A DNA stretch of 64,000 nucleotides from NCBI RefSeq assembly GCF_039523335.1, contig NZ_BAAAFC010000005.1, positions 1 to 64,000 on the forward strand. Direction: 5' to 3'. A model generated the notes under the pieces. The model was given only the letters and a program-made list of their open reading frames with translations. It was not told the DNA's origin and searched no databases. The stretch comes from Marinobacter szutsaonensis. GTDB taxonomy: Bacteria; Pseudomonadota; Gammaproteobacteria; Pseudomonadales; Oleiphilaceae. The first letter of the stretch is position 1; the number at the start of each line of letters is the position of its first letter. This document shows positions 35,489 through 63,954 of the stretch, in pieces. The position numbers and the translations under genes are program-made.

Positions 35489-35596
35489 GGTGGTGTGGGG
35501 CCGCCCTCCCAAAAACCGCTACGAGCACGTCCATGTGCGCTTGTTTCAGGCCATCCTTGGCCTTCAACATTTTTGGGAGGGCGGCCCCACACCACC
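35489..35596 (-). repeat. Variable-arm hairpin element, copy A
   Basis: Perfect 27-bp inverted arms (35489-35515 and 35570-35596; outer part GGTGGTGTGGGGCCG, inner part CTCCCAAAAA) enclose a 54-nt core (35516-35569). Read on the minus strand, the last 27 core bases are identical to those of copy B (AAGCGCACATGGACG and onward). The core holds GGCCAAGGATGGCC, a small hairpin with AGGA in the loop. It lies 50 bp after the pyrF stop. No coding potential is credited. Confidence 0.9.
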
Positions 35597-35705
35597 GGTC
35601 TAGGCATCCGGGGGTATCGCAACTGATCTGAAAGAGAATTTTGGGGAGGGTTGATGGGAGATTCTCTCCGCGCTCTAGTGAAGGCGGATATCTCCTGAAT
35701 TCAGA

Positions 35706-35812
35706 GGGGCGGTGGGTACCTGCTCCCAAAAATGTGCGGAGCCATGGATGGCGGAGCCAAGCGCACATGGACGTGCTCGTAGCGGTTTTTGGGAGCAGGT
35801 ACCCATCGCACC
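35706..35812 (+). repeat. Variable-arm hairpin element, copy B
   Basis: 27-bp inverted arms with two mismatches (35706-35732 and 35786-35812) enclose a 53-nt core (35733-35785). The outer arm sequence (GGTGGGTACCTG) is unrelated to copy A, but the innermost CTCCCAAAAA is shared. The core contains GCCATGGATGGC and GCACATGGACGTGC, two short hairpins with GGA in the loop. It is inverted relative to copy A, 110 bp away. The 110 bp between them hold no recognisable gene. Confidence 0.9.
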
Positions 35813-35899
35813 TTGCACCAGAACTGGAAAGCTAGGGCAGGACTAAAGCCCAAAACCCAAAACTTAATCAGAGCTTCTAGAGAAAAAACGAACAAACAC

Positions 35900-61659: not shown

Positions 61660-61768
61660 GAAGCAAGTGCGGATGCGTTGCCGAAACACGCTGTGAATAC
61701 GTCCCTGTACGCTCGGCTCCGCCATCCATGGCTCCGCACGGTTTCGGCAACGCATCCGCACTTGCTTC
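61660..61768 (-). repeat. Variable-arm hairpin element, copy C, in the htpG leader
   Basis: Perfect 28-bp inverted arms (61660-61687 and 61741-61768; outer part GAAGCAAGTGCGGATGC) enclose a 53-nt core (61688-61740). Read on the minus strand the core starts CGTGCGGAGCCATGGATGGC like copy B and holds GTACAGGGACGTAT in place of B's GCACATGGACGTGC. The arms share nothing beyond a few inner bases with copies A and B. The element lies between the sigma-32 start site and the htpG ribosome-binding site. Confidence 0.9.
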
Positions 61769-61808: not shown

Positions 61809-63701
61809 ATGACGGTTGAGACGCAAAAAGAAACTCTGGGTTTTCAAACGGAAGTTAAGCAGCTGCTTAACCTGATGATCCATTCCCTGTATTCGAACAA
61901 AGAGATTTTCCTTCGTGAGCTGATTTCCAACGCTTCGGATGCCGAGGACAAACTGCGCTTTGCCGCCCTGAAGGACGACAAACTGTACGAGGGCGATTCC
62001 GAGCTGAAAATCCGCCTGGATTACGACAAGGACGCCGGCACCGTGACCCTCACCGATAACGGTATCGGCATGAGCCGGGATGATGTCATCTCCAACCTGG
62101 GCACAATCGCCAGGTCCGGTACTGCCGAGTTCCTGAAGCAGTTGTCCGGTGATGAGAAGAAGGACAGCAAGCTGATCGGTCAGTTTGGTGTCGGTTTCTA
62201 CTCCGCGTTCATCGTGGCGGACAAGGTCGATGTGTTTACCCGCCGTGCCGGTGCGTCCGCCGAAGAAGGCGTGCATTGGGAATCGAAGGGCGACGGCGAG
62301 TTCACCATCGAGCAGGTAAACCGCGAGCAGCGTGGTACCCAGATCGTCCTGCACCTGAAGTCCGACGCCAAGGAGTTTGCCGACGGCTGGAAACTGCGCA
62401 GCCTGGTGAAGAAGTACTCCGACCACATTTCCTTCCCGGTGGTGATGAAGTCTGAATCCGAGGAAGAGGAAAAGAAGGGCGAGGACGAAACCGTCAACGA
62501 CGCTACCGCCCTGTGGACTCTGCCGCGTACCGAGATCAAGGACGAGGAATACAAGGAGTTCTACAAGCACATCGCCCACGACTTCGAGGATCCGCTGACC
62601 TGGTCCCACAATAAGGTCGAGGGCAAACTGGATTACACCAGCCTGCTGTATATCCCCAAGCGTGCTCCGTTTGACCTGTACAACCGGGAAGCGCCCCGCG
62701 GCCTGAAACTGTATGTCCAGCGCGTGTTCATCATGGACGACGCCGAGCAGTTCCTGCCCCTGTATCTGCGCTTCACCAAGGGTGTGATCGATTCCAACGA
62801 TCTGTCCCTGAACGTCTCCCGGGAGATCCTCCAGAACGACAGCACCGTGGACAGCATCCGCACCGCCATGACCAAGCGGGTACTCGATATGCTCTCCAAG
62901 CTGGCCAAGAAGCAGCCGGAGGACTACCAGGCGTTCTGGAACGAGTTCGGTACCGTTCTGAAAGAAGGCCCGGCCGAGGACTTCAGCAACCGCGAGAAGG
63001 TCGCCGGTCTGTTGCGTTTTGCCACCACCCATACCGGTGAAGCTGCCCAGAACGTTTCCCTCGATGAGTACATCGAGCGGATGAAGGACGGCCAGAAGAA
63101 GATCTTCTACATTACCGGTGACAACTTCGCCGCCGCCAAGAGCAGTCCGCACCTGGAAGTATTCCGGAAGAAGGGCATCGAGGTGCTGATCCTGTCTGAC
63201 CGCATCGACGAGTGGATGATGGGTTACCTCAGCGAGTACGACGGCAAGCAGTTCCAGGACGTCGCCCGTGGTGACCTGGACCTGGGTGAAGTCGAGACCG
63301 AAGAGGACAAGAAGCACAAGGAAGAGGCCGCCGAGGAGCACAAGGACCTGGTCGAGCGCATCAAGAAGGCCCTGGACGACCGGGTTCAGGAAGTGCGGGT
63401 GACCAACCGTCTGACCGATTCCCCGGCGTGCCTGGTGGTTGGTGAGTTCGACATGGGCGCCCAGATGAAGAAGATCATGGAAGCCGCCGGCCAGAAAGTG
63501 CCGGAGAGCAAACCGATCTTCGAAATCAACGTTGACCACCCGCTCGTTCAGCGCCTGGAGACCGAGAAGGGCGAAGAGCGCTTCAAGGAACTCTCCGCCG
63601 TCCTGTTTGACCAGGCCACCCTGGCCAGCGGCGAGCAGCTCAAGGATCCCGGCGCGTATGTGAGCCGGTTGAACCGGCTGTTGCTGGAGCTGGCTAACTG
63701 A
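61809..63701 (+). CDS. htpG: Molecular chaperone HtpG (bacterial Hsp90)
   Basis: An ATP-dependent homodimeric chaperone of 630 residues that remodels client proteins with DnaK. The N-terminal GHKL ATPase domain has [30 protein letters not shown] and [17 protein letters not shown]. Middle and dimerisation domains follow, full length. CAGGAG lies 12 bp before the ATG. Regulation is by the sigma-32 promoter at 61606-61633 and possibly by the 109-nt hairpin in the leader. Confidence 0.98.
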
Positions 63702-63720
63702 GGGGTAAGGCCGTGAACAT

Positions 63721-63954
63721 GGGGTCAGATGAAAGCTTTCATCTGACCCCTTTTTCATTCCACCCCGGCTCGATCTGAAACCCGGGGTCAGAAGAAAGCT
63801 TTCTTCAGACCCCGACCTAACCTCAGACCCCGGCCATCGCCAGGCGCCAGCCGCCAACTCCGGGGTCAGATGAAAGCCTTCATCTGACCCCTTTTTCATT
63901 GCACCCAAGCTCAGTCTGAAACCCGGGGTCAGAAGAAAGCTTTCTTCAGACCCC
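63721..63954. repeat. Tandem pair of 93-bp units built from 30-bp palindromes
   Basis: Four palindromes lie at 63721-63750, 63784-63813, 63862-63891 and 63925-63954. Type 1 (first and third) is a 15+15 palindrome, GGGGTCAGATGAAAG with CTTTCATCTGACCCC, perfect in the first. Type 2 (second and fourth) is GGGGTCAGAAGAAAG with CTTTCTTCAGACCCC and one A-A mismatch. The two 93-bp units (63721-63813; 63862-63954) differ at about seven positions. They begin 20 bp after the htpG stop. Beyond them only a small AAAAACT/AGTTTTT hairpin (63973-63992) is seen to the window end. Confidence 0.92.

Follow-up and report, generated by a model that had tools for sequence, protein, structure and literature searches.

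A dispersed family of TwoAYGGAY-like hairpin elements with copy-specific stems and candidate CsrA-type loop pairs in Marinobacter

The Marinobacter genome analyzed here (G000) carries a dispersed family of hairpin elements, each built as a stem of about 28 bp around a core of 53 to 58 nt, and at orthologous sites the two arms of the stem change in a coupled manner. On one strand, which we call the GGA strand, two small hairpins form in the core, each with an ANGGAY hexaloop. We consider it rather probable that the element is a structured RNA that presents a pair of CsrA-type sites and whose arms are kept by selection together with template switching.

Three copies, A, B, and C, lie in the window, i.e., the whole 64,000-nt stretch of DNA that was analyzed. 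An earlier note on this DNA had claimed three copies with one shared architecture, and the inverted arms that it described were recovered as follows.

35489..35596, - strand (GGA strand): copy A, whole hairpin element (inverted-repeat search and double-loop pattern)
35489..35515: copy A, 3′ arm of the GGA strand (27/27 complementary)
35570..35596: copy A, 5′ arm of the GGA strand (inverted-repeat search)
35553..35558, - strand: copy A, first hexaloop AAGGAT (double-loop pattern match at 35528-35561)
35529..35534, - strand: copy A, second hexaloop ATGGAC (double-loop pattern)
35705..35813, + strand: copy B, whole hairpin element (inverted repeat; 109.2 bits with our own covariance model, B itself being among the 46 sequences used to build it; a weak 24.6 bits with the TwoAYGGAY model)
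35705..35732: copy B, 5′ arm (inverted-repeat search)
35786..35813: copy B, 3′ arm (28 nt, 93% complementary)
35744..35749, + strand: copy B, first hexaloop ATGGAT (double-loop pattern match at 35741-35773)
35767..35772, + strand: copy B, second hexaloop ATGGAC (double-loop pattern)
61660..61768, - strand (GGA strand): copy C, whole hairpin element, upstream of an HSP90-family gene (inverted repeat and double-loop pattern)
61660..61687: copy C, 3′ arm of the GGA strand (28/28 complementary)
61741..61768: copy C, 5′ arm of the GGA strand (inverted-repeat search)
61724..61729, - strand: copy C, first hexaloop ATGGAT (double-loop pattern match at 61700-61732)
61701..61706, - strand: copy C, second hexaloop AGGGAC (double-loop pattern)

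The core is conserved, as had been claimed, when all copies are read on the GGA-loop strand; the orientation had to be corrected, with B on the + strand and A and C on the - strand. Copies A and B have an OMP decarboxylase gene on one side and a tRNA-Asn gene on the other, and copy C is flanked by a thioesterase-like gene and the HSP90 gene, which is found at 61809 (PF00183). The double-loop pattern, which was derived from these same copies, matched three times in the 64-kb window and not once in 100 shuffles. Folded as a single RNA sequence, copy B gave z = -8.2 on the + strand and -7.6 on the - strand, as expected of any long inverted repeat. Elsewhere in the window, positions 63714-63954 hold two 93-nt units, 94% identical, each with two palindromes of the form GGGGTCAGA(T/A)GAAAGC...GACCCC. 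Palindromes resembling these adjoin the loci L003, L004, and L014, pointing to another dispersed palindrome family.

At least 51 armed copies, A, B, and C among them, are present in G000. The core word CATCCATGGCTCCGC was found in 34 exact places and in 12 more with one mismatch; with up to two mismatches it was found in 71 places, compared with 13 for the same word read backwards. Extraction from the G000 loci gave 53 rows and four low-scoring lines, and dropping one chance match (score 8) and three repeat rows left 49 distinct armed elements, including L024, whose arms measure just 12 bp. Among the 12 places with one mismatch, L135 and L137, both armed, were missed by the extraction pattern, and four further, low-scoring cores (L006, L018, L020, and L021) are broken by an insert. 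The earlier note had named two observations that would speak against its description: cores lacking inverted arms, and arms drawn from a few ordinary repeat families. Neither was borne out. A double-loop search blind to the arms returned only armed places among the G000 loci (49/49) and nearly so in 1.2 Mb of the sister genome G118 (32/33), the four insert-interrupted G000 copies standing apart; the reversed G118 sequence gave no match to the double-loop pattern. The identity of the outer arms between copies lies at the background level.

Of the 49 copies, 15 have no mismatch in the innermost 28 pairs, 21 have one, 12 have two, and one has four. The mean pairwise identity among the copies falls from 0.80 in the core to 0.685 in the inner arm (11 nt), which reads approximately CTTTCC[A/G]AAAC, and to 0.405 in the outer 17 nt, compared with 0.371 for shuffled sequences. 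The claim that the arms are unrelated between copies therefore holds for the outer 17 nt but not for the inner 11 nt, which are shared. Copy-specific outer arms with a common inner arm and core are general across the family.

The structure was assessed with 46 copies picked for diversity, in which RNAalifold predicted a stem of 28 bp and two stems of 3 bp, each of the latter capped by a 6-nt loop. Of the cells in the long stem, 98.3% are paired, a value due in part to the copies having been chosen for pairing arms. All but one of the 28 pairs of this stem (27/28) are altered on both sides somewhere in the set, and the covariation score was 0.80, against 0.20 after shuffling and 0.09 to 0.17 under sliding. 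A hand-drawn five-pair stem around the first hairpin is 77% paired and covaries, with one pair failing in 32/46 copies.

Loop composition was examined in 195 nonredundant copies, defined by distinct left arms among the loci collected by then. Apart from its N and Y, the first loop, CCANGGAYGG, was set by the search pattern, and its constancy is no evidence; its second hexaloop base is T in 150 copies, G in 28, A in 16, and C in 1. The second A.GGA loop is present in 194/195 copies and reads, with its neighbors, ACANGGANGU, where the C is found in 193/194 and the G in 190/194, and where N can be any of the four bases (T 99, G 74, C 14, and A 7; n = 194). The tight CsrA/RsmE motif is described as an ANGGAX hexaloop closed directly by a stem, in which N is needed but free (PMC4005645, in part), and this hexaloop-on-stem arrangement is present twice per element. 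One csrA gene is present in G000. We infer that the elements may be bound by CsrA, a specific and testable prediction.

If the hairpin of one strand is what matters, G·U mismatches should be tolerated on that strand and A·C mismatches should not. Read on the GGA strand, where the loops are ANGGAY with a free second base, the arm mismatches comprised 35 G·U against 7 A·C and 19 others in G000; 148 against 24, with 64 others, in the 195-element set; and 23 against 3, with 28 others, in 29 non-Marinobacter elements from 45 loci, the P values for this contrast being overstated since copies share descent and the non-Marinobacter set being a separate sample. This excess of G·U over A·C argues that the hairpin of one strand is under selection. 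Such selection would act most simply on RNA, which fits the bias best, and single-stranded DNA of the GGA polarity is also possible; RNA-level selection on the hairpin is well supported by these patterns.

The gene context was tabulated for 188 elements, a mostly Marinobacter set in which orthologues are counted and a simple ORF rule defined the genes: convergent genes flank 79 of them, codirectional genes 49 and 43 (in either sense), and divergent genes 17, so that the flanks comprise 250 gene 3′ ends and 126 gene 5′ ends. The orientation of the elements to neighboring genes is even (194 sense and 182 antisense flanks; P = 0.57), and G·U exceeds A·C in every context (sense-sense, 22:5; convergent, 70:3; antisense-antisense, 30:3; divergent, 9:1). 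The even orientation and the presence of the bias in every context argue against a plain 3′-untranslated region (3′-UTR) element, and together they would call for transcription, whether antisense or by read-through, or else for a mobile single-stranded phase. No promoter belonging to the elements was evident from the best sigma-70-like score in the 195 copies, which was 8.10 upstream on the GGA strand and 8.08 on the other side (P = 0.82; 8.35 and 8.28 when shuffled). TATAAT-like hexamers with at most one mismatch in the last 45 nt or so were found in 27 copies on the GGA-strand side and 9 on the other; they were rejected because the excess persisted in shuffled sequences (35 and 21), indicating that the difference is due to base composition. 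Inspection by eye showed a weak motif, ACTCA, about 10 to 30 nt upstream of the stem, and CNCCNAAG downstream, the enrichment of such words taking in orthologues of two sites.

The earlier note had proposed comparing orthologous sites for arm turnover, and in such comparisons the arms do change, mostly on both sides. At site C, where 64/70 loci had both anchors and 11 genomes were in the set twice, the arms differ among species and complementarity is kept; certain genomes have two oppositely oriented elements and others have none. At site A/B, exactly one element is present in each place in 23/28 loci, indicating that the A-B pair is probably old. At this latter site, the A arms of L159 match by eye the B arms of another species (L160) and vice versa, which looks like an inversion of the intervening segment with break points outside the stems.

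Stem changes were counted among four close genomes in all six pairings (75 comparisons that share genomes and are thus not independent), kept only where the flanks align up to near the element. Among 2,068 orthologous stem pairs, 83 had changed on one side (41 of them still paired), whereas 182 had changed on both sides and still paired, half by transitions (91) and half needing a transversion (91); 13 had changed on both sides and were unpaired. A strict subset of 1,358 pairs from 48 comparisons, with ungapped arms and at least 75% unchanged pairs, had 35 one-sided changes, 55 two-sided changes with pairing kept (21 of the transversion type), and 3 with pairing broken, and the two-sided changes were clustered, being confined to 17/48 comparisons. 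The tightest filter, requiring at least 85% of pairs to be unchanged, reverses the ratio (27 one-sided and 19 two-sided), and it is a filter that takes out the changed stems.

Flank divergence among the compared genomes is 8 to 10%. For G000 and G002, where arms changing independently at that rate would yield 85 single and 3.9 double changes, the observed counts were 19 and 63. Even in the least favorable of the six pairings, G000 and G118, there were 12 single and 10 double changes (2 broken; 11 pairs of elements) against predictions of 51 and 2.5, and another pairing rule (13 pairs) gave 23 kept doubles and 2 broken against 10 singles. Doubles are far above the independent-change prediction in all six pairings. 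Contiguous patches altered jointly on both arms were found in L253 versus L279 and in L142 versus L284. The excess of doubles over singles, half of them needing transversions, suggests template switching together with selection for pairing.

Selection alone could also keep the arms complementary, through independent compensatory mutations that pass via G·U or rare mismatched intermediates. G·U intermediates are tolerated on one strand, and the transition-type kept doubles (91/182, or 34/55 in the strict subset) could have passed through them. We nevertheless find this explanation doubtful: two-sided changes outnumber one-sided ones, the other half of the doubles (21/55 in the strict subset) would require a mismatched intermediate, and the contiguous patches changed on both arms together. 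A further caution applies to template switching itself, as the clustered doubles may partly reflect arm exchange. The earlier note had posed selection for a long stem and copying of one arm from the other as alternatives, and we find support for both, the former in the 27/28 covarying pairs and the G·U bias and the latter in the surplus of two-sided over one-sided changes. Selection for pairing combined with template switching would produce copy-specific arms.

Transposition systems such as REP/RAYT and IS200/IS605, and attC sites, use single-stranded DNA of one polarity as the substrate. The elements might likewise be nonautonomous mobile elements that move as single-stranded DNA of one polarity, with an enzyme recognizing the two hairpins and the arms derived from the target site, either by the core entering the loop of a palindrome or by an insertion that copies its flank in inverse. 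This reading agrees with the orientation of the elements being independent of genes, with a strand bias in every gene context, and with the 79/188 copies between convergent genes. It also agrees with copies coming and going. Orthologous flanks in 1.2 Mb of G118 were located for 21/49 G000 sites, of which 13 have an element, one has an interrupted element, one has an element in the opposite orientation, and six have none; by eye, two of the six empty sites (L009- and L011+) retain a short outer-arm hairpin, and site C in G064, G060, G037, and G057 has short outer hairpins without a core. Deletions would explain the empty sites equally well, and L011+ in G118 fits, by eye, a deletion between 6-bp direct repeats. 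In a comparison of G013 with the empty site C of G060, also by eye, about nine paired arm positions that lie outside the shared inner arm are missing from the empty hairpin. Moreover, CsrA requires loops of just this ANGGAY form, whose second base may vary (PMC4005645, in part). We therefore regard mobility of this kind as unlikely. That the long stems are bidirectional 3′-end structures (terminators or RNase barriers) with the loops as incidental passengers is very improbable. Gene 3′ ends do predominate in the flanks (250 versus 126, with 79/188 copies between convergent genes), but a run of four T's within 12 nt past the stem is found in 0/49 G000 copies on the GGA strand and 2/49 on the other strand, and a symmetric barrier needs neither strand polarity nor invariant GGA loops.

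Inserts were observed inside the small hairpins. In L006, L018, L020, L021, and L171, an insert of about 100 nt with small hairpins of its own sits inside the second small hairpin. Another insert is found inside the first small hairpin of the site C orthologues L100, L105, L106, L107, and L109, with hairpins such as GTGAAGAGC...GCTCTTCAC and GGGCTGGCC...GGCCAGCCC, indicating that the loops themselves are insertion targets.

Recombination between copies may keep the cores alike, as is suggested, with modest strength, by two observations. A switch of core type with homologous arms was flagged in 7/61 comparisons, one of which (L011-) is trivial and six of which are real and fall on three sites (L005, L015, and L022). 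The core identity between A and B within a genome was 0.868, compared with 0.830 by permutation (P = 0.0014; 23 one-each genomes; uncorrected for phylogeny), a small difference that amounts to a hint.

The earlier note had suggested searching the genome and other Marinobacter genomes with a covariance model. A 22-base pattern with two mismatches allowed found copies in 19/29 genomes, namely, the 19 that belong to the genus, with no copy in the 10 others. Our own covariance model, built from the 46 copies, reached much further and matched 154/390 genomes and 70/142 genera of the order at an E value of 1e-4 (16 of the 154 genomes being of this genus) and 46/274 genomes and 41/222 genera of the class at 1e-6 (own genome counted). 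The best-scoring loci from genomes outside the genus, taken as the best match per genome, show both loops at the same places in 19/19 cases. Among the matches listed, the named non-Marinobacter carriers of the double loop with arms include Haliea alexandrii and Parahaliea aestuarii, and records from Rhodospirillales, Chloroflexi, Fretibacterium, and Sumerlaeota have the double-loop pattern without arms. Copy B had no match in plasmid and phage collections at 1e-5 (blastn, distant mode), and the double-loop pattern was found in one stretch of viral contigs. Two other kinds of double-ANGGA repeat were observed. L337, L359, L399, and L403, from Granulosicoccaceae metagenome-assembled genomes (MAGs), represent another double-ANGGA hairpin family whose arms end in T/A runs, with two places each in L337 and L403. 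The other, a short double-ANGGA repeat (GGCCANGGAYGGCCTTATG...GCACANGGATGYGC) that lacks long arms, is present in L345, L347, L349, L355, L375, L396, and L411, and in L345, L349, L375, and L396 it closely follows a run of T.

A structured RNA with paired CsrA-type sites would work as follows. The long stem would present the two ANGGAY hairpins as a CsrA/RsmA-type site pair about 24 nt apart, and one CsrA dimer could bridge both loops of one element. We infer that the GGA strand would be transcribed by read-through or antisense transcription, given that the search for a promoter belonging to it was negative, and that the element RNA would bind CsrA. The tens of dispersed copies could then form a distributed sponge, or each could respond to CsrA locally. 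The arms would be free in sequence since pairing alone would count; template switching at replication would copy one arm onto the other, and selection would add to the pairing. The weakest step is that the cores would probably be kept alike by recombination between copies.

If the GGA strand is transcribed and bound by CsrA, there would be tens of unrecognized intergenic CsrA sites in many Gammaproteobacteria, and titration models would change. A bolder possibility, which we raise tentatively, is a genome-wide, self-renewing CsrA sponge made of dispersed two-site hairpins that are spread and homogenized like repeats across Gammaproteobacteria while their stems are rewritten by template switching. 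In that case, CsrA titration would hinge on the transcription of dozens of unrelated loci, and each copy would be a natural record of template-switch mutation. The copies also offer a test bed for the upkeep of long RNA stems, with dozens of loci per genome, similar cores, and free stems, and sister genomes let one-sided and two-sided stem changes be counted.

The earlier note had recognized no described family and had missed that the core is two ANGGA-type hairpins; TwoAYGGAY (RF01731 in Rfam) in fact lies close. Besides copy B, six other copies score 31.7 to 38.2 bits with its model (nine loci given). A, B, and C are below the gathering cutoff of 43 bits, as is the best of the 43 G000 matches (42.0 bits), and matches above it were obtained in G005 (two), G002 (one), and G021 (one), at up to 49.8 bits. 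In a search of 12 genomes at an E value of ≤10, each of nine genomes of the genus had 4 to 47 matches (43 in G000), and of the genomes from other families G019 had five, G021 had one, and G020 had none; among control genomes, 1/14 matched, below the cutoff. All matches listed align to the whole model length (1-168). Matches to eukaryotic microRNA families in Rfam were rejected as generic long-stem matches below their cutoffs.

Of the TwoAYGGAY hallmark, two adjacent hairpins with AYGGAY loops in an external stem, the elements have the two hairpins and the stem, and their loops are ANGGAY. TwoAYGGAY is described as two AYGGAY-like hairpins on a poorly conserved external stem, with CsrA as a proposed partner and with tandem G·A mismatches in one reported stem (PMC4333381, in part), and A-type cores have, by eye, GA opposite GA. 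Unlike in TwoAYGGAY, the second loop base of the elements is often G or A instead of Y, and high copy number, dispersal, and arm turnover are absent from the parts of its descriptions that we compared (PMC2864571, PMC4333381, and PMC11701678). On this comparison, made by model scores and part of the published text, the elements are best called TwoAYGGAY-like, TwoAYGGAY being a candidate CsrA-binding RNA.

CsrB and RsmZ (RF00018 and RF00166) sequester CsrA/RsmA through repeated GGA hairpin loops. They are single loci with many loops, whereas the present family spreads its loops over many loci, two at each. The CsrB model had no match in G000 at an E value of ≤1. The RsmZ model matched three G000 places, all below its cutoff and none in the window or among the listed element loci, and it also matches below the cutoff in 8/14 control genomes. 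One of the three, L458 (G000:C1:1908357-1908485), is RsmZ-like at 32.2 bits against a cutoff of 44 bits and is a candidate canonical CsrA sponge RNA. REP, BIME, and MITE sequences are dispersed, intergenic, and palindromic, often at gene ends and sometimes in inverted pairs. They keep their arms or ends between copies, whereas the elements keep the core and inner arm but not the outer arm, whose identity (0.405) is close to that of shuffled sequences (0.371) in the 49 copies. RsmZ is named alongside the CsrA/RsmE motif in the part of PMC4005645 that we consulted.

The family is real, wide, and largely unrecognized; among the open-licence papers listed on CsrA, TwoAYGGAY, and Marinobacter repeats, no title or abstract opening mentions a dispersed family of this kind. 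Template switching has been put forward as the explanation of multibase compensatory changes in RNA stems (Monttinen and Loytynoja 2022, PMC8794818, in part). That work, in the part consulted, covers rRNA and other RNA genes, whereas here tens of paralogous loci per genome display paired stem change side by side.
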